Source: a virus
IMG/VR virus record: IMGVR_UViG_3300046722_000186
Coordinates: 1 to 41,921 of that record
Strand: one strand, 5' to 3'
Length of the DNA: 41,921 nt
Numbering within the stretch: the stretch's first letter is position 1; each line of letters starts with the position of its first letter. A model generated the notes under the pieces. The model saw only the letters and a program-made list of their open reading frames with translations, was not told the origin of the DNA and searched no databases. Both the position numbers and the translations under genes were made by a program. This document shows, one piece after another, positions 370 to 36,528 of this stretch.

Positions 370-374
370 GCGTC

Positions 375-761
375 GTGGCCAAGTCACCACAGAAATCCTG
401 CGACATGGCCGAACTCGCCATCCCGCTGGTACGCAAGCTGGTGGGCGCGCGCCGACGCTATGGCATCGCCTGGGACACCTCATTCACGGATGCGGGACTG
501 GAGCTGGGCATCAGCCCATGGCGCTGCCGGACGCTCTACTACCGGCTGGCGGGCATTCGCCCGGCGCTGTTCGCCGAGTGGAACCGACTGCGCGAACGCG
601 GCGCGCTGATGCTGCGGCAGGAAGCTGCGCGGCTGCGACGGTTTGCCGATGAGCTGGACGCCGAGGCCGACGCGCTGGAGAGCGGCCAATCCCAATACCC
701 ACGGAGCACTGAATGCGCACCTGCGCCTGGCGACGCTGCCTTGCGCGAGGCGGCCGAGTGA
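375..761 (+). CDS. Hypothetical early protein with a helix-turn-helix-like segment
   Basis: A 128-residue protein starting at GTG 375. The middle (about residues 50-70, DAGLELGISPWRCRTLYYRL) looks like a helix-turn-helix, and residues 80-105 form a charged helix rich in Arg, Glu and Ala. It sits in the rightward early operon between two tiny ORFs. It may be a DNA-binding accessory or regulatory protein, but I do not recognise the family. Start choice is uncertain; the next in-frame ATG is at residue 11. Confidence 0.6.
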   Translation: MAKSPQKSCDMAELAIPLVRKLVGARRRYGIAWDTSFTDAGLELGISPWRCRTLYYRLAGIRPALFAEWNRLRERGALMLRQEAARLRRFADELDAEADALESGQSQYPRSTECAPAPGDAALREAAE

Positions 762-2514: not shown

Positions 2515-2561
2515 AGCCGCGAACGCCGAGAGTACCATGCAAGCGGAGCGCACATGAGTGA
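2511..2561 (+). CDS. Possible 16-aa peptide or leader of the next gene
   Basis: A 16-codon basic frame (MKPRTPRVPCKRSAHE) begins at an ATGA overlap with the membrane ORF and ends 8 bp inside the next gene. It contains one outlying copy of the 9-mer unit found in the 3426-3740 array (GAGAGTACC at 2528, GAGCGCACA at 2546). It may be only a coupling leader. Confidence 0.25.
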   Translation: MKPRTPRVPCKRSAHE

Positions 2562-3420
2562 CCACGTAGACCCGTCGCTACTGACGCCCATACAGAAGCT
2601 AACCAAGGATCTGCGCGAGGCATCACGCACGCTCGGTCCCTCTGAGGCGCGCTTTCTCGTAGATGCATACTACAAGATCCAGGAAGACCGTATCCGCTCC
2701 GCTCACCAGGTTCGCACGCTGTCACAAGCCACCGACGACAAAGCGCCCGAGCCGCACGACACCATTGCGTGGCTTTTCACCCAGGAACAAACGCTGGAAA
2801 ACCAGATCAAAGCTGCGCTCGATGTCTATGGCGCTGGCCAGCCTGCTGGCGTGTGGATGCGCAGCATCGTGGGCATTGGCCCGGTCATTACCGCCGGCTT
2901 CCTGGCGCATATCGACATCGCCAAAGCCCCGACCGTCGGGCACATCTGGCGGTTCTGCGGCCTCGATCCGACGGTCAAATGGGACAAGGGCACCAAGCGC
3001 CCGTGGAATGCGTCGCTCAAGCGCCTGTGCTGGATCGTCGGGGAAAGCTTCACCAAGGTCAGCAACCACCCCGATGACACGTACGGCAAGCTCTACCAGC
3101 AGCGCAAAGAGCGTGAGATCGCGCGCAATGAAGCTGGTGACTACGCTGAGCAGGCTGCCGCCTCGCTCACGGCCAAGCGCTTCGGGGACGATACGGCTGC
3201 CAAGAAGCATTACTTGGCGGGGAAGCTGCCCCCTGCGCGCATTCACCTCCGGGCGCAACGCTATGCGGTCAAGATATTCCTGAGCCATTTCCACGAGGTC
3301 TTGTTCTTCACCGCGTATGGGGAGCGCCCGCCCAAACCGTATGTGCTGGATCACGTTGGTGGCCATGTGCATCGCATCGAGGTTCCAAACACCCACCTCG
3401 TGCCGGGGTTAAAGCCGTGA
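2554..3420 (+). CDS. Protein with IS110-transposase-like C-terminal (Transposase_20-like) region
   Basis: A 288-residue protein starting at ATG 2554. Residues 104-165 (SIVGIGPVITAGFLAHIDI, then WRFCGLDPTVKWDKGTK and LKRLCWIVGESF) resemble the helix-hairpin-helix-containing C-terminal domain of IS110/IS116 transposases, including the GIGPVTA and GLDP landmarks. The N-terminal DEDD catalytic domain is absent. The remainder is helical and charged. It is therefore probably a DNA-binding or structure-recognising early protein, not an active transposase. Its TGA overlaps a GTG at 3417, and the frame beyond the stop stays open through the adjacent repeat array. Confidence 0.65.
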   Translation: MSDHVDPSLLTPIQKLTKDLREASRTLGPSEARFLVDAYYKIQEDRIRSAHQVRTLSQATDDKAPEPHDTIAWLFTQEQTLENQIKAALDVYGAGQPAGVWMRSIVGIGPVITAGFLAHIDIAKAPTVGHIWRFCGLDPTVKWDKGTKRPWNASLKRLCWIVGESFTKVSNHPDDTYGKLYQQRKEREIARNEAGDYAEQAAASLTAKRFGDDTAAKKHYLAGKLPPARIHLRAQRYAVKIFLSHFHEVLFFTAYGERPPKPYVLDHVGGHVHRIEVPNTHLVPGLKP

Positions 3421-8961: not shown

Positions 8962-8967
8962 GGGCGG

Positions 8968-9041
<74 letters not shown>

Positions 9042-12163: not shown

Positions 12164-14883
12164 TGAGCGGACTGATCCAACGACCCGGCGGCCTGCTGTC
12201 CCCCGGACCCATGGGCATGCCCCCTGGCATCATCCCGCCCCTGCCGCCGCTGCAGGGACTGGTGCCGTCCGGCATGCAGCCGCAGGGCTTGAACCTGGGC
12301 AGCGAGCAGATGCTCGCATATCTGGTTCCTCAGCCGCGCGCCGATATCCCGGACGACCCGGATCAGAACCTGCCCCCATCACTGCGCCGCTATGCCGCCG
12401 GATTGCGCCCGACACCTAAGCCCGCCGGCGTGCCCTGGCAGCAGGAGATCGTGTTCGAGCGCCTCGGCAAGGACGATCGAGAGATTGAGGCGGTCGCCCA
12501 GTATTATTTCAAGATCGCACAGAACTACGACATGTACCTCAGCCGCGAACGGATCACGGCATCGCAGTACTATGACGGACGGCCATTGGGGGACGAGACA
12601 CCAGGGCGGTCACAAATCGTGCTCACGGTGGTGCGGGATACGATCAGGAGCACGCTGCCGAGCCTGCTCCGCGTCTTCACCGGCGTCGAGGATCCGGTGA
12701 GCTTTGAGCCCATCAGTTCCGAGATCACCGGCAATGACCAGCTCGCCACCATGCTGTCGAAGCAGGCGACCGACTACGCCCGCTGGGCGCTGTTCACCGC
12801 CAACCACGGCTGGCAAGTGCTGCACGATGTGTTGTTGGACGCCCTGACCAGAAAGGCAGGGTGGGCGCGCTGGTACTGGGGCAAGCGCGAGCAGATCCGC
12901 ACCGATGTGTGCGAGGGCCTGCTGCAGCCGCAGCTCCAGATGCTGCTCGCGCAGCCGGGCATCGAGGCGCAACGCATCGTCCGCCGCCCGATGACCGACG
13001 AAGAAGTCTCCACCCTGCAAAAGACCCCAGACGGGGCGATGTATCTACAGCAGGGCGGCGCACCCGAAATGTGGGCCGCTACCATTACACGGACGGCACA
13101 GCAGAACTGGCCATGTGTCGAAGCCGTGCCGGCCGAGTGCGTCTGGGTGGTGGCCGACGCCAACGATGTCGGGACCGCGCGCGGTATCTTCCACGTCAGA
13201 GACGTTCCAGCCTCCGACCTCATCGAGATGGGGCTGCCGGAAGATAAGATCCTGAGCTACTGCGACACCATGATGCGGCCGCAGCAGCGCCGCGAGATGA
13301 TTGCCCGCAATCCATCCCAGGGCCTCAACATCAAAGCCTCGCCACCGAACGACCGCAGCATGGGCATCTGTCGCTACGCCGAGGGCTGGATCCGCTGCGA
13401 TACGGATAACGACCACAAGGCCGAACTCATCCACGTGCACATGTTGGGCAATGCGACCAAGATGATCCAATGGGAGCGCTGCGACGAAATCCCGCTGGCG
13501 TGTTTCACGCCATACAGAGAACCCGGCCGCCTGATCGGCTACAGCCAGGCCGACATGGTCATGGACCTGCAGCGGGTCGAAAGCCGGGTGATGCGGGCGA
13601 CGCTCGACAGCCTGGCCCAGAGCATGTTCCCGCGGACCGTGGTGACGCTGGGGCAAGTGAACCTCGCGGATGCCCGTCAGACGGCGATCGGCAGCATTAT
13701 CCGGACGACGCAGGCGGGGGCAGTGACGGAGCTGGTGAAGCCCTACACCGGCGAAGCAGCCCTCAACATGATGCAGGCCCTGGAGGCGATCCGGGAGAGC
13801 AGGACAGGCATTACCCGGGCCAGCCAGGGACTGACGGTGGACGAGCTGCAATCAACGGCGCCCGTGGCCGTGTCGGCGCAGACGTCGGCCGCACAGGATC
13901 GGCTGGACATGATGGCGCGCACGCTGGCCGAGACTGGGCTGGCACCATTGTATTCGGGGCTGCTGAAGATGATGGCGCGGCACCAGGACCGACCGAATGT
14001 GTACAGGATTAGGGGCCAATGGGCGGCGATCGATCCGCGGGCATTGGGTGTGATGTGGCAGACCAGCGTGAACGTCGGCGGCAAGGGCATGCCCATGGAA
14101 CGGCTGGCGATGTTGAGCCAAATTGCGGCGAAACAAGAGATGATCATGGCCAGCCAGGGGCTCGATAACCCCCTGGTCGGCGTGCCGGAATACCGCAATA
14201 CGCTGTCGCGCATGTTGGAGACCGCCAACATTGCCGATGTGTCCTCCTACTTCAAAGCCCTGCCCCCGGGGTTCCAGCCGACGCCGCCACCGCAGCAACC
14301 CGATCCATCGCTGATCCTCGCCCAGGTGCAGGCCGGCAAGACCGCGGCTGACGTTGAGAACGATCGCGCGTCAGAACAAACCAAGCGGGCGCAGATGCTG
14401 ACCGAGGACGACTTGAAGAGGGATCAGGCGGCGCTCGATGCCTGGACCAAGACATGGGTCGCAGGCGCCCAGTTCGGCACCCCGGTGCCGTCACTCACCG
14501 AGTTCCAGCAGGCCATGGCCAGCAAAGTGCCGGGCATCCAACTGCTCGGCAATCTGCCGCCGCCCACCAGCCCCCAGATGCCCGCGACGACCCAAGGAGC
14601 GACGCCACCACAGCCGCCCCCTGGAGGGCCTCCACGGCCTCCGCAGGCGCCGCCACAGGCACAAGGGCCAATGATGCCGCCACGGCCGCCACAGCCCATG
14701 GGGCCGCCTGTGGGCTCGACCAACCCAGCGCAGGCGATGGCGACGCGCCAGGCGCTCATGCAGGGGCAAATGCCCAGCGCGTATGGGAACATCGCAGCAC
14801 GTGCCGCAGGGCAGAGCCTGTTCGGACCCGGAGGGCCTGCCCTGCCGCGGCCGGGCGGCGCGCCACCACAACCAGGGCAGTAA
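12163..14883 (+). CDS. Portal protein (P22-like)
   Basis: A 906-residue protein. The core (about residues 90-700) resembles P22-type portals: an N-terminal KDDREIEAVAQYYFKIAQN, a wing with IRSTLPSLLRVFTGVEDPVS, and a conserved LEAIRESRTGITRASQGLTV followed by a helical region with SAAQDRLDMMARTLAETGLA. The last 170 residues are Pro/Gln-rich and probably disordered, making it longer than P22 gp1 (725). It would form the dodecameric ring through which DNA enters and leaves. GTG 12163 overlaps the preceding TAG by one base. Confidence 0.85.
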   Translation: MSGLIQRPGGLLSPGPMGMPPGIIPPLPPLQGLVPSGMQPQGLNLGSEQMLAYLVPQPRADIPDDPDQNLPPSLRRYAAGLRPTPKPAGVPWQQEIVFERLGKDDREIEAVAQYYFKIAQNYDMYLSRERITASQYYDGRPLGDETPGRSQIVLTVVRDTIRSTLPSLLRVFTGVEDPVSFEPISSEITGNDQLATMLSKQATDYARWALFTANHGWQVLHDVLLDALTRKAGWARWYWGKREQIRTDVCEGLLQPQLQMLLAQPGIEAQRIVRRPMTDEEVSTLQKTPDGAMYLQQGGAPEMWAATITRTAQQNWPCVEAVPAECVWVVADANDVGTARGIFHVRDVPASDLIEMGLPEDKILSYCDTMMRPQQRREMIARNPSQGLNIKASPPNDRSMGICRYAEGWIRCDTDNDHKAELIHVHMLGNATKMIQWERCDEIPLACFTPYREPGRLIGYSQADMVMDLQRVESRVMRATLDSLAQSMFPRTVVTLGQVNLADARQTAIGSIIRTTQAGAVTELVKPYTGEAALNMMQALEAIRESRTGITRASQGLTVDELQSTAPVAVSAQTSAAQDRLDMMARTLAETGLAPLYSGLLKMMARHQDRPNVYRIRGQWAAIDPRALGVMWQTSVNVGGKGMPMERLAMLSQIAAKQEMIMASQGLDNPLVGVPEYRNTLSRMLETANIADVSSYFKALPPGFQPTPPPQQPDPSLILAQVQAGKTAADVENDRASEQTKRAQMLTEDDLKRDQAALDAWTKTWVAGAQFGTPVPSLTEFQQAMASKVPGIQLLGNLPPPTSPQMPATTQGATPPQPPPGGPPRPPQAPPQAQGPMMPPRPPQPMGPPVGSTNPAQAMATRQALMQGQMPSAYGNIAARAAGQSLFGPGGPALPRPGGAPPQPGQ

Positions 14884-15237: not shown

Positions 15238-15483
15238 GTGAGCGAGCCATCACGTAATTACTTCGTTCGCAGCGGTGGGGTTGGCGACTACATCACGCAG
15301 CAGAATCAGTTCACCATCACCCGCGAAGCGTTCTGCAATCCCGAGTTCGCTACCCTGGTCGAGTCCCTGCGCGAAAGCGTCGAAGCACTCTGCCAATCCC
15401 ATCCAGACGAACAGCTCGATCGCATCATCATCCAACTGGACTACGGCGTGATACCGTTCAAATCAACCGGCAACCATCCATGA
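15238..15483 (+). CDS. Hypothetical protein
   Basis: An 81-residue protein from GTG 15238, three bases after the previous stop. It contains NYFVRSGGVGDYITQQNQFT and a helix LVESLRESVEALCQSHPDEQ. Its stop overlaps ATG 15480. No family recognised. Confidence 0.58.
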   Translation: MSEPSRNYFVRSGGVGDYITQQNQFTITREAFCNPEFATLVESLRESVEALCQSHPDEQLDRIIIQLDYGVIPFKSTGNHP

Positions 15484-15752
15484 GCGACCTCTCACGCGAG
15501 GAACGCCACGAGATCCTGCGCCGCGGCTCCGAGAGCCACCGCCTGCTGCAGGATACCGAACTGATGAGCATCCTCACGTTTATCCGGGAAGGCGCCGTGC
15601 AGACCGCCGTTCATGGGGCCGATGCCAGGGAACGTGAGGACGCCCGCAACCTCGCCCGCGCGATCGACCACCTCGCTACCGAGATGCGCACCCGGCTCGA
15701 CACCGCATTGCTACAGGGCCAGCGCGAGGCCGATGGGCGCCGGTTTGAGTAG
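15480..15752 (+). CDS. Helical hypothetical protein, homologous to the adjacent spacer sequence
   Basis: A 90-residue helical protein (SREERHEILRRGSESHRLLQ). Residues 25-34, DTELMSILTF, resemble the peptide DRELMDVLTF that the 32-nt spacer at 15774-15805 would encode in one frame (7 identities and one conservative change in ten). The stop codon lies inside the first, degenerate repeat of that element. Function unknown; position between portal and scaffold suggests head assembly. Confidence 0.58.
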   Translation: MSDLSREERHEILRRGSESHRLLQDTELMSILTFIREGAVQTAVHGADAREREDARNLARAIDHLATEMRTRLDTALLQGQREADGRRFE

Positions 15753-15834
15753 CCCCGCATGTGCAGGGAACGTGCCGACCGCGAGCTGATGGACGTGCTG
15801 ACCTTCGGGTCAACCCCGCACGCGCGGGGAACGC
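15745..15834 (-). CRISPR. Mini-CRISPR array candidate: two type I-E-like repeats, one 32-nt spacer
   Basis: Repeat at 15806-15834 has the core CCCCGCACGCGCGGGGAAC, characteristic of type I-E repeats read in reverse (about 26 of 29 positions agree with the common consensus as I remember it). A degenerate copy lies at 15745-15773 (core CCCCGCATGTGCAGGGAAC, about 19 of 29 identical). The period is exactly 61 bp, leaving a 32-nt spacer at 15774-15805, the standard type I-E spacer length. Read on the minus strand, the intact repeat comes first and the degenerate one last, as in terminal repeats. No cas genes are in the window, so host Cas proteins would be needed. Two chance hairpins are the main alternative. 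Confidence 0.6.
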
Positions 15835-15871
15835 TCCACCCTACACACGCTAAACCCAAGATGGAAACCCC

Positions 15872-17005
15872 ATGAGCGAGAGTAGCAGTAGCAGTTCCGC
15901 GCCCGCACCGGCCGCAACCCCCGCAGCAGCCCAGCCAGCCACCCCAGCGCCAGCCAGCAACGACGCCGGCCTGGCCAATGCACCAGCCCCCGCCAGCCAG
16001 GAGGCCATCAGCCTCTCCGACGCCGGCCGCATGCTCGCCGCCAAACGCCGCCAGGATGCCGCAACAGCACGCCTCAATCCCGTGCAGCAGGGGCCAGGCG
16101 AGGCACGCGCCACGCCAGCGCCAGCACAACCGGCGGCGCCAGCAGAGTCCAAACGAGATGCCCCCACCGACAGCTACGACACCATCGCCAAGGCACTCGG
16201 GCTCGATCAGGGCGCGGCGCCAACTCCTGCCGAGGGTGCCCCCACCGAAGGGGCAAGCGACGGCGTCTTCACGATCGACGGCCACCGCGTCACCGCCGCA
16301 CAGATCAGGACGGCGATGGGGCAGGCCGTCGATTACACCAACAAGATGAAGGACCTGGCCCAGCAGCGCCAGCAACTCCAGCAGCAGGCCGAGGCACTCG
16401 CCACCGTGCTGCCCCATATCCAACCCGAACTCGCCAAACTCGGGCAGCAGCTGCAAGGCGCCGCGCCACCCGATCCATCGCTCATCGACACCGACCCACA
16501 AGGCTACCTGCGCCAGTTCGCCGCCTACCAGGCCGCGACCGCGGAGCAGCAACGCCTGGGCACGCTGACCCAACTGCAACAGCAAGCCTACGAACGTTCG
16601 ATGTCGCAGCAGGTCGAGGCCGGCAATAAGATGCTGAGCGAAAAATACGAGTTCTGGCGCGATGATGCGTCCCGAAGTGCGGTCCAGCGCGACATCGCCC
16701 GTTGGGCCGAGGCCAAGGGCGGCTACACCCGCCAGGAACTCCAGGGGCTCTCCGACCCGCGCCACGTCGAGTCGATGATGAAGGCCATGATGTTTGACAG
16801 ATTGGTGGAGGGCGCCAAGACCCGCGCGCCCCAGCCAGTGCAGACCGCACAGGTGCGCGGCGTGCGGCCGCCACCAGCTCCCGCCGCCGCGGTGCAGGCC
16901 ATGGAACAGGCGTTCGAGGCCGCACCGAATGCCCGCAACGCCGCAGCCCTGCTCAGCGCCCGACGCTCCGCAGCCGCCGGCAGCAACGGCAGCGGGCGGT
17001 ATTGA
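15872..17005 (+). CDS. Putative scaffolding protein
   Basis: A 377-residue protein directly upstream of the major capsid gene. It has an Ala/Pro/Ser-rich disordered N-terminal third, a central acidic and Gln-rich coiled-coil segment (MKDLAQQRQQLQQQAEALAT), a helical section (EKYEFWRDDASRSAVQRDIA) and a basic C-terminus with Pro/Ala. This architecture and position are typical of scaffolds that guide capsid assembly and then leave. ATG 15872 is preceded by GATGGAAACCCC. Confidence 0.7.
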   Translation: MSESSSSSSAPAPAATPAAAQPATPAPASNDAGLANAPAPASQEAISLSDAGRMLAAKRRQDAATARLNPVQQGPGEARATPAPAQPAAPAESKRDAPTDSYDTIAKALGLDQGAAPTPAEGAPTEGASDGVFTIDGHRVTAAQIRTAMGQAVDYTNKMKDLAQQRQQLQQQAEALATVLPHIQPELAKLGQQLQGAAPPDPSLIDTDPQGYLRQFAAYQAATAEQQRLGTLTQLQQQAYERSMSQQVEAGNKMLSEKYEFWRDDASRSAVQRDIARWAEAKGGYTRQELQGLSDPRHVESMMKAMMFDRLVEGAKTRAPQPVQTAQVRGVRPPPAPAAAVQAMEQAFEAAPNARNAAALLSARRSAAAGSNGSGRY

Positions 17006-17265
17006 CGACACCGTAGCTACATCCCTACGGTGGGTTGTCGGTCGGGGGCAGTCTCACCTTCGGGGTTACCAAGCAACGATCGGGCCGTGCAGTCGCAGGA
17101 TGACCAAGTCGGGCCGTCAGCACGCACCGGAGTCTCTCCCTCGCGGGGTTACCAACCGGTAAACGCCTGATAGGTCAGTCAGTCCGCTCCATTGCGAACC
17201 AGCAATTTTGGTTCAACCGGCATGCAGCGTCGTAGCTACGCGCGTGCCATGCAATGGAGATGGAC
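17006..17265. promoter_or_regulatory. Structured leader upstream of the capsid gene
   Basis: This 260-bp gap holds a strong hairpin (CACCGTAG 17009-17016 with CTACGGTG 17025-17032). It also holds two related elements 83 bp apart ending in CGGGGTTACCAA (17061-17072 and 17144-17155), each preceded by GTCTC and a C-rich stretch that could pair with the GGGG, and two GTAGCTAC palindromes (17013, 17232). There is no reading frame. It may hold a late promoter, processing site or stabilising 5' structure for the capsid mRNA. Confidence 0.55.
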
Positions 17266-18249
17266 ATGGCCGTTCCCGCACAGGGAGCCGCACCCGCAGG
17301 CACTTACATCGAGACCGCAGCCGTTGGCGTCCGCGAAGACCTCGCGGATATCATCTATCGCATCGATCCCGACGAGACACCGCTGGTCAGTGCGTGCCCA
17401 CGAGTAGGCTCAAAGCAAGTATTGACAGAGTGGATCGTTCAAGAGCTTAATCCAGCCGCAGACAACGCCCAGCCTGAAGGCTTTACTGCTGTTATGCAAG
17501 CAGTAATTAAACCGGTGCGGCTCAACAACGTCTGCCAGATACTTGCAAGGACCGTGGGCGTGTCCAACACCCTGCGCGTGGTGGACGTCGTCGGGGGCGA
17601 GGACGAGTACAACCGCAACATGATCCTCCGCGCCATGGAAGTGAAGCGCGACCTCGAGTTGGCAGTGACCAGCCCGCTGGTACGCACCATCACCGATCCG
17701 CGCCATATGTCGGGCCTGCCCTGCTATACTAACTTCGGCTCGCGCGGCGCTGGTGCTGGCGTCATGCCGATCGGTGATGGCTCCAACGCAGGCACCGTCG
17801 GCACCGCGTTCGACCTCACACTCGCCGTCGTCAACGCCGCCATCCAGCAGTGCTGGCAAGCCGGCGGCAATCCCACGATCGGCATCATGTCGGGCAACAT
17901 CAAGAACTACTTCGCGACGCTCAGCCAAGGCGGCACCGGAAATCCCATTGTCGCCCAAAATATCGTGCAGGCGTCACCAACCGGCGAGATGACCATCCAG
18001 GGCGCGGTAGATGTGTACAGGACGAACTTCGGCACGCTGCAGCTCACGCCGGATCGCTTCTGTCCCGCCCACCAAATCCTGCTTGTATCTACGGACTATG
18101 TCGAGATGGCGCCGTTGCCAGAGCGCGATATGGTCCAGCAGGACTACGCCCAGACAGGAGATAATTCCCAAGGTGGCGTGATTTTCGAGGGGTGCATTAG
18201 ACCGACTGCTCCTAAGGCGCATGCCACAATATTCGATCTTAATCAATAA
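17266..18249 (+). CDS. Major capsid protein (DUF5309/SU10-type)
   Basis: A 327-residue protein. The start VPAQGAAPAGTYIETAAVGV, then LADIIYRIDPDETPLVSACP and a C-terminal part with YRTNFGTLQLTPDRFCPAHQ match the DUF5309 family that includes phage SU10 capsid protein, an HK97-fold shell protein. Three ATGs (17254, 17260, 17266) are in frame; only 17266 has a proper GGAG six bases upstream, so it is preferred. Segments near 17401-17520 and the last 80 bases use AT-richer codons than the middle, consistent with gene conversion next to the HNH insertion that follows. Confidence 0.85.
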   Translation: MAVPAQGAAPAGTYIETAAVGVREDLADIIYRIDPDETPLVSACPRVGSKQVLTEWIVQELNPAADNAQPEGFTAVMQAVIKPVRLNNVCQILARTVGVSNTLRVVDVVGGEDEYNRNMILRAMEVKRDLELAVTSPLVRTITDPRHMSGLPCYTNFGSRGAGAGVMPIGDGSNAGTVGTAFDLTLAVVNAAIQQCWQAGGNPTIGIMSGNIKNYFATLSQGGTGNPIVAQNIVQASPTGEMTIQGAVDVYRTNFGTLQLTPDRFCPAHQILLVSTDYVEMAPLPERDMVQQDYAQTGDNSQGGVIFEGCIRPTAPKAHATIFDLNQ

Positions 18250-18312: not shown

Positions 18313-18816
18313 CTACTTCTTCCTTCGCCCGGCCTGCTGCCAGATGCGGAACGCTGTGCGTTTGCACTCGCGGCATTTCCGGGTGATGGAGCCGTCGCGA
18401 TGCTGACGTTCGAGGATCACATTCTCGGCCGTCAGTTCGTGGCCTCGCGGGCAGTGCGTTCGGGGGATTGCGGTCAGTCTGGCTCGCACCGCCTTCATGT
18501 GCTTCGACGCAGTGGTTGGCACGAGACCGCGCAGGACGTTCATGCTGGCGGTCACCGCTTCGAGGTGGTCGGGGTTGATGCAGCCCTTGATGCGGCAGAG
18601 GTGGTCTATCTGCAGCCCGTCTTGGATTGGTCCCTTGGCGTATTCAAACGCCAGCCGATGGGCGGGAATGGACACCCCTCGTCTGCCCGAAGGCACGCGA
18701 CCGTAGCCATCGTGCGCGATAGTGCCGTTCCAGATCCAACAGCCGCTGAAAGGCACGGGGATGCAGCGCTCGAACAGTTCGTTGAGCGACACAGGGAACC
18801 GCTGCAATGTGGTCAT
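18313..18816 (-). CDS. HNH homing endonuclease, antisense to the structural genes
   Basis: A 167-residue protein. It carries GCWIWNGTIAHDGYGR (residues 25-40), AHRLAFEYAKGPI, the HNH core LQIDHLCRIKGCINPDHLEA (residues 69-88) and a C-terminal zinc-like CPRGHELTAEN...CRECK. Free-standing HNH genes of this type nick or cut recipient phage DNA and spread by gene conversion. It is inserted antisense immediately after the capsid gene and overlaps a small Cys protein gene upstream by 4 bp (ATGA). Confidence 0.88.
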   Translation of the reverse strand: MTTLQRFPVSLNELFERCIPVPFSGCWIWNGTIAHDGYGRVPSGRRGVSIPAHRLAFEYAKGPIQDGLQIDHLCRIKGCINPDHLEAVTASMNVLRGLVPTTASKHMKAVRARLTAIPRTHCPRGHELTAENVILERQHRDGSITRKCRECKRTAFRIWQQAGRRKK

Positions 18817-25739: not shown

Positions 25740-26063
25740 ATGGCCACATTCGCCGGCTCGATGTCCAACACCGCGCAGCCCAACCCGCAATGGGTGCCGT
25801 GCGATGGCGCACCGCATTACGTGCTCTACGATAAGCAGGCGCGGCGCACGCCTGGCGTGCTCTCCGAGGGCAATCGTCAGGATTATCTGCGTAGGGTTGG
25901 GTGGCAAGGCCGACGCCGTGGGCTAGGTGCGATGGGCTGGATAATCTGCACCCCTTACGATAAGACATCGACTTGGAAGATCTCGCTCGCTGATGATCCA
26001 GTCGAGACGGCGCTAACGCCCCCCGTTCCGTGGCCAGGAAAGCCACCGGCGGGGATCGCTTGA
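25740..26063 (+). CDS. Hypothetical tail-region protein
   Basis: A 107-residue protein with TAGGAGAG before ATG 25740. It contains WVPCDGAPHYVLYDKQARRT and RRGLGAMGWIICTPYDKTST. It is beta-rich and resembles no family I know. It lies between the nuclease gene and the next fibre, overlapping the following start. Confidence 0.55.
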   Translation: MATFAGSMSNTAQPNPQWVPCDGAPHYVLYDKQARRTPGVLSEGNRQDYLRRVGWQGRRRGLGAMGWIICTPYDKTSTWKISLADDPVETALTPPVPWPGKPPAGIA

Positions 26064-36051: not shown

Positions 36052-36528
36052 TTAAAGCAAGTATCGCCATCTTCTTCCTCCACGAATGGCGCTGATCGTG
36101 GTTTCTGCAACACCAAACTCAACAGCAAACGAACGGCCAGTGCGCCAGGTCTGTTGTCTGATCGCTAGGACGTCTGCTTCCGTCAGTCTTGAGTTATAAC
36201 GATCCGAGCCTCTGCTTTCTGTCCCGTGCCGCAACTTATCCATCCGGTTCTCACGGACGGTCGCCCACCGCAAATGCTTGGGTGCAACGCACGCTCGGTT
36301 CCCGCACCAGTGCGCTACGTGGGGTTTGTCCTGCGGAGGCGCTCCGTGGACCAGAGTGCATACAACGCGAGCCGCCGTGCCGCGAATGCCAGGAAATCTG
36401 ACTTGGCCATATCCAGTAGTTGTTAACCCATATGGCCAGATCAAACAGTCACTGCCAGCATAGCCAATAGCCGTAGGGATAAAAGCTGGAAGCGCTCCTC
36501 GTGGAGCTCGCATAGGGTGGTCCTTCAT
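36052..36528 (-). CDS. HNH homing endonuclease with C-terminal helix-turn-helix
   Basis: A 158-residue protein: DCLIWPYGLTTTGYGQV, HVAHWCGNRACVAPKHLRWA (HNH core) and VRENRMDKLRHGTESRGSDR, then a C-terminal NUMOD-like helix-turn-helix (LTEADVLAIRQQTWRTGRSF, EFGVAETTISAIRGGRRWRY) that contacts target DNA. ATG 36528 or 36513 may be used; neither has a strong ribosome binding site. It lies in the leftward operon in the sense orientation. Confidence 0.87.
   Translation of the reverse strand: MKDHPMRAPRGALPAFIPTAIGYAGSDCLIWPYGLTTTGYGQVRFPGIRGTAARVVCTLVHGAPPQDKPHVAHWCGNRACVAPKHLRWATVRENRMDKLRHGTESRGSDRYNSRLTEADVLAIRQQTWRTGRSFAVEFGVAETTISAIRGGRRWRYLL

Follow-up and report, generated by a model that had tools for sequence, protein, structure and literature searches.

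A Cas-less type I-E mini-CRISPR array in a tailed phage, probably directed at the neighboring gene of related phages

The 41,921-bp IMG/VR virus record IMGVR_UViG_3300046722_000186 (the whole stretch analyzed, here called the window; 63% GC) derives from a tailed phage and carries, at positions 15745 to 15834, a miniature array of clustered regularly interspaced short palindromic repeats (CRISPR). The array lies between a 90-amino-acid gene (15480 to 15752) and the scaffold gene (15872 to 17005). We read it as a phage-borne, Cas-less type I-E mini-array that steers the Cascade-Cas3 of the host to the allele of the adjacent gene in related phages while its carrier is spared, a reading to which we assign a probability of about 0.8. 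It is drawn from the geometry of the array, the replacement of its spacer at the same site in relatives, an asymmetry in the repeat handles, the targets of sister arrays with their protospacer-adjacent motif (PAM) and intact seed, the avoidance of self-targeting, and the lack of recognized cas genes. The features concerned are as follows.

15480 to 15752, plus strand: flanking 90-amino-acid gene, function unassigned; its homologues in relatives hold the presumed protospacer
15549 to 15580, plus strand: counterpart of the presumed protospacer in the diverged allele of the phage itself, with 13/32 mismatches to the spacer
15745 to 15773, minus strand: terminal repeat ACGTTCCCTGCACATGCGGGGCTACTCAA; hairpin stem kept, handle lost, overlapping the stop codon of the flanking gene
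15774 to 15805, minus strand: 32-nucleotide (nt) spacer S1, AAGGTCAGCACGTCCATCAGCTCGCGGTCGGC in canonical orientation; 5 to 8 mismatches to adjacent-gene homologues in relatives and 13 to the phage's own allele
15806 to 15834, minus strand: leader-side (first) type I-E repeat GCGTTCCCCGCGCGTGCGGGGTTGACCCG; stem intact, 8-nt handle TTGACCCG intact
15835 to 15871, minus strand: short leader region preceding the first repeat, most of it common to the same-site array of record G012

Read on the plus strand, the two repeat units are TTGAGTAGCCCCGCATGTGCAGGGAACGT (15745 to 15773) and CGGGTCAACCCCGCACGCGCGGGGAACGC (15806 to 15834), exactly 61 bp apart around one 32-nt spacer. The canonical type I-E orientation places the array on the minus strand, with the near-canonical repeat on the leader side and the degenerate repeat at the end. 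The 29-nt repeat with its CCCCGC/GCGGGG stem and 8-nt 3' handle, the 32-nt spacer, and the AAG/ATG PAM agree with type I-E, and the type-specific repeats, constant spacing, and one to three spacers agree with a mini-array. A preliminary description made from the letters of the window had noted the 61-bp distance, the spacer at 15774 to 15805, and a near-canonical repeat paired with a degenerate terminal one; all of these are present, the terminal unit being the one at 15745 to 15773. The resemblance that it drew between one frame of the spacer (DRELMDVLTF) and the neighboring gene at 15480 to 15752 (DTELMSILTF) is also real. The 20-nt repeat core has no other match in the window at up to three mismatches (0.03 expected), and no convincing cas gene was found among the 46 window proteins; a match to Cas7g (E value, 0.0025) was taken as chance.

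The same junction was surveyed in 29 IMG/VR loci that encode the flanking 90-amino-acid protein. An array identical to that of the window occurs at L002 and L003 (records G001 and G002), and at L012 and L013 (records G011 and G012) the junction holds an array with a similar leader-side repeat, a wholly different 32-nt spacer, and a terminal repeat cleaner than that of the window. In most other relatives the junction is no more than a short gap with no array, and that of L014 may be a deletion remnant. Such presence/absence polymorphism, together with the replacement of the spacer at one site, marks the array as neither a terminator nor a product of chance. The preliminary description had considered that relatives might show ordinary hairpin terminators with drifting spacing at this place; what they show is the exact 61-bp spacing, kept in the same-site relatives.

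A different element occupies the junction in six relatives (L007 to L011 and L018; records G006 to G010 and G017). On the minus strand it consists of GCGTCTCGGACCTCATTGAAGC, about 36 variable nt, and ATCTTCCGAGACGC, with 10-bp inverted clamps and a ATTGAAGC handle. In five records the variable part corresponds to a diverged segment of the flanking gene, and in G010 to one of the next gene. L218 and L221 also contain CTCGGACCTCATTGAAGC, there with different clamps (GACGTTGC/GCAACGTC); the stretch that follows it has a 25-nt inverted copy nearby. The element is possibly another kind of guide unit.

A scan of relatives and of IMG/VR yielded 23 arrays with 29 distinct spacers in the phage family of the window and in related or similar records, including five or six arrays in the single genome of the related record G047; the reversed-pattern control yielded no array in 45 records. 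The hairpin stem is kept in 46/46 first and last repeats, and the 8-nt handle is intact in 22/23 first repeats and 1/23 terminal repeats (P = 1.3e-10). Because the last repeat needs only its hairpin, this asymmetry is what selection for a single CRISPR RNA (crRNA) should leave. Where an array has several spacers, the repeats nearest the leader are identical to one another and the last one differs, as would be expected if the Cas1-Cas2 of the host had added the extra spacers at the leader end. Strong hairpins lie downstream of the terminal repeat in about 7 of the 23 arrays.

Further variants of these units were seen in individual records. A solitary repeat-like hairpin is found in G002 (2549 to 2577, minus strand); there, and at the site C terminal repeats of G022 and G050, such a hairpin precedes a TATACT/TATGCT-like box. 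In G022 and G002 a GC-rich hairpin and its T run come next, as if the former terminal repeat were now the starting point of a small RNA. Array H of G047 (25857 to 25945, minus strand) has its carrier's own copy of the target gene, with one mismatch to the spacer, directly behind the terminal repeat, and the PAM of that copy is replaced by the repeat end. In array I of the same record (370 to 519, minus strand), two consecutive spacers resemble variants of one target.

Thirteen of the 29 spacers match another record at up to 7/32 mismatches. An AAG or ATG PAM flanks 9 of these 13 best matches (background, 2.4%; P = 1.7e-12), all nine are free of seed mismatches, and reversed-spacer controls gave essentially no comparable matches. 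At the level of the family, spacers of sister arrays match related viruses with the PAM of type I-E. Two spacers have exact targets: that of S3, carried by G012, lies in G022, and that of S7, carried by G022, lies in G012, so that these two array-bearing phages target each other; S6, S22, and S28 have targets with one mismatch each, and S10 has one with two. The carriers themselves are not targeted: their own alleles have seed mismatches (S7, S8, S9, S11, and S24) or have lost the PAM (S20, S21, S25, and S28). Two sites in the window resemble the targets of spacers carried by its relatives.

14527 to 14558, plus strand: protospacer-like site in the portal gene, with 3 mismatches to the same-site spacer of G011 and G012
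17257 to 17288, plus strand: site in the first part of the major capsid gene, differing at 4 positions from spacer S7 (G022 and G023), the target of which is exact in G011 and G012

The targets are strongly biased toward the locus of the array. The main test was confined to 17 full-length records, in which 12 spacers have a target, the partial contigs being set aside because they had been found through genes near array site A; a target was counted as on-locus if it fell within the homologues of the sequences that flank the array, or no more than 300 bp from them. On this definition 10/12 targets were on-locus (P = 2e-9, with chance taken as about 9% each), including 8/8 for single-spacer arrays. 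The spacer of a ninth single-spacer array, S22, targets a gene that has been lost from the array locus in its carrier. The off-locus spacers S3 and S6, both mapped and truly far from their arrays, are leader-proximal in the multi-spacer arrays B1 and B2, while the leader-distal spacers S5 and S7 are on-locus. In an independent test, the match within 600 bp of the array was in the best 5% of carrier-genome windows for 9/24 spacers (P = 1e-6). Conservation of the targets may add some bias to these figures, and several of the arrays share one site. The data reject a random choice of targets along the genome. Two accounts of the neighbor targeting both fit: either only linked arrays persist, because recombination parts an array from a distant resistant allele, or the array homes.

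Three arrays are common to otherwise diverged phages and sit in tracts of perfect identity of 511, 503, and 103 bp. The respective pairs show 92, 85, and 84% identity where they can be aligned; choosing pairs by an identical spacer in itself favors long identity tracts around arrays. In the second pair, the next longest identical tract is 82 bp. In the first (A1) pair, perfect identity also extends over a 552-bp block that holds no array, so that mosaicism is general. The tracts thus show recent exchange, not its cause.

In the mechanism that we propose, the array would be transcribed from the minus strand, and Cas6e of the host would cut at the two hairpins to release one 61-nt minus-strand crRNA from 15745 to 15834 with the 5' handle UUGACCCG. 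This single crRNA would be loaded into the Cascade of a host type I-E system, and Cascade-Cas3 would then be directed to the adjacent-gene allele of related, competing phages; the carrier would be spared by an own allele that is seed diverged or lacks the PAM. Host-dependent interviral targeting of this sort is the best-supported mechanism, and the array is probably an interviral weapon tied to its own locus, which would presumably serve for superinfection exclusion.

Several observations weigh against this interpretation, beginning with S1 itself, for which no near-exact target was found among the relatives or in IMG/VR. The preliminary description had the spacer aimed at the homologous gene of a diverged relative at the same locus. 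Its best matches do lie in homologues of the adjacent gene, but these have 5 to 6 mismatches in 32, with ATA in the place of the PAM, or ATG with 6 mismatches, and seed mismatches occur; many relatives have 5 to 8. Thus, the search against related phages and the test for a PAM that had been suggested gave no near-exact match, and two degenerate IMG/VR scans returned only copies of the array and 6-mismatch homologues, nothing closer. The phage's own copy is diverged, as had been claimed in explanation of how self-targeting is avoided, but at 13/32 positions (41%) and not at one third. Either the exact target of S1 is unsampled or the spacer is outdated; our reading presumes the former, with a live target. 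Evidence for a promoter is also weak: the leader region has no convincing promoter by consensus, and a common −10 promoter upstream of the 23 arrays was not significant overall. The minimum-energy fold of the isolated transcript is not predicted to form both repeat hairpins. The leader-side repeat differs between arrays within one phage, so that copying from a single host repeat does not by itself account for it. Finally, the comparison of the repeat with host genomes that had been proposed pointed to no host. Two thermophilic Rhodobacteraceae with Cse1 were recovered with the repeat type of site B, and no convincing match to these phages was found among their spacers; in 398 genomes of the phylum to which they belong, no identical repeat was found, and the capsid homologues are only remote. 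In favor of our reading, genomes with repeats of this type encode Cse1/Cas8e.

The alternative that deserves most attention, although we consider it decidedly less probable than simple interviral targeting, is that the array is a selfish element that moves by RNA-guided homing, a natural CRISPR drive. A single-spacer array would cut the empty-site allele of its own locus in a coinfecting relative, and recombinational repair would copy the array with its flanking resistant allele, host Cas taking the part of a homing endonuclease. The preponderance of on-locus targets would follow from this, because what they represent is the empty-site allele of the array's own locus in relatives; the S22 array fits as well, and so does the arrangement in B1 and B2, with the leader-distal spacer on-locus and a leader-proximal one off-locus. 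The RecT- and Gam-like proteins of the window phage could serve the repair, these genomes hold homing elements of the classical sort, both HNH endonucleases and capsid-gene introns of group I, and the identity of the tracts around shared arrays, set against that of their backgrounds, is consistent with homing without being proof. However, where recombination is frequent, mere linkage of an array to its own resistant allele should place targets just as near and leave the same exchange tracts. The 552-bp block of the A1 pair has no array, and a direct conversion event was not seen. Cascade-Cas3 moreover degrades DNA processively, which is less favorable to repair than a clean cut.

It is improbable that the array is a dead relic, left behind when a host CRISPR array recombined with the phage genome. 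The degenerate terminal repeat of the window and the want of a close target for S1 would suit such an origin, as would the gene copy behind array H of G047, which is what a crossover inside the spacer would leave; the intact stems (46/46) and first-repeat handles (22/23), the turnover of spacers, and the current exact targets argue for selection in the family, though the window array alone is possibly in a relic state. Marginally less probable again is an RNA anti-CRISPR (Racr), in which the repeats would be decoys that sequester Cas6e or Cascade of the host and the spacer would be incidental. Phage-encoded repeat mimics are known, two I-E Racrs having been tested (PMC10651486), and the hairpin at 2549 in G002 is solitary. 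A decoy, however, needs none of the 32-nt spacers with PAM-flanked, seed-perfect targets, their turnover at fixed sites, or self-avoidance, and the window has two repeats with a guide where a Racr would be a single repeat that has no guide to go with it; an additional, secondary action as a decoy is possible. Chance or ordinary hairpin terminators can be dismissed almost entirely. It is true that hairpins rich in GC are nothing unusual and that one of the two repeats, the terminal one, is degenerate, but the exact 61-bp spacing recurs around another spacer in relatives, only 0.03 matches were expected, and the reversed control was empty (0/45 records); since spacing, expectation, and controls exclude both, we regard the mini-array as genuine.

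The window array belongs to a known kind, the virus-borne mini-CRISPR array directed at related phages. Such arrays were described in the Saccharolobus portogloboviruses SPV1 and SPV2 (Medvedeva et al. 2019, PMC6858448), for which mini-arrays, reciprocal targeting, self-avoidance, and targets near the array are already known, and they have been reviewed (PMC8616872 and PMC11656645). The arrays of SPV1 and SPV2 resemble those described here in having one or two spacers and no cas genes, different spacers at the same position, mutated own alleles, reciprocal targeting of close relatives, and targets close to the array. Unlike them, the present arrays are in bacterial tailed phages, have type I-E repeats, and number five or six in G047; they also have a terminal repeat without a handle and no clear leader, and their targeting is read from sequence. 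Phage and prophage mini-arrays that target adjacent genes of relatives were reported by Faure et al. (2019), as cited in PMC6858448 and PMC8616872; in those secondary accounts they are likewise Cas-less, in bacterial phages, and without an obvious leader. Beyond what these accounts relate, we find family-wide 10/12 on-locus targeting, PAM and seed statistics, and exchange in short identity tracts; to our knowledge, the same-locus statistic and the exchange tracts are new. Racrs (PMC10651486) are similar in being phage-encoded copies of host-type CRISPR repeats, but they are solitary repeats that inhibit Cas, whereas here two repeats enclose a functional-looking guide that turns over. Nuclease genes at phage exchange boundaries are the subject of PMC10448857. 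Free-standing phage homing endonucleases are similar in that they adjoin the sequence that they would cut in relatives, have a carrier with a resistant allele, and move with their flanks; in contrast to them, the present arrays would owe their specificity to an RNA guide acting through Cas proteins of the host, and their homing is a proposal. In the literature searched, the coverage of which was incomplete, no paper was found that treats mini-arrays as homing elements. The many arrays and full-length relatives make exclusion, linkage to a resistant allele, or RNA-guided homing directly testable, and if homing were true, phages would possess a natural drive based on CRISPR, and CRISPR parts would have a new means of spreading.

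Elsewhere in the window are genes for portal, scaffold, capsid, terminase, and RecT- and Gam-like proteins, a serine invertase, several HNH endonucleases, an IS110-type transposase, and a NusG-like protein. Annotated phages gave no DNA match to the array region of the window, and the closest capsid among them is at most 38% identical to that of the window at the protein level. The transposase gene lies inside the phage record (2554 to 3420, plus strand), and a tRNA-Met (CAT) gene is found at 8966 to 9041 on the minus strand. HNH endonuclease genes are located at 18313 to 18816 and at 36052 to 36528, both on the minus strand, the former directly downstream of the capsid gene and near the place of the mini-array site B or the intron of relatives. 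In seven relatives (L054, L056 to L060, and L062), the major capsid gene is broken by an insert of about 295 nt, which Rfam identified as a group I intron in 5/5 relatives tested.
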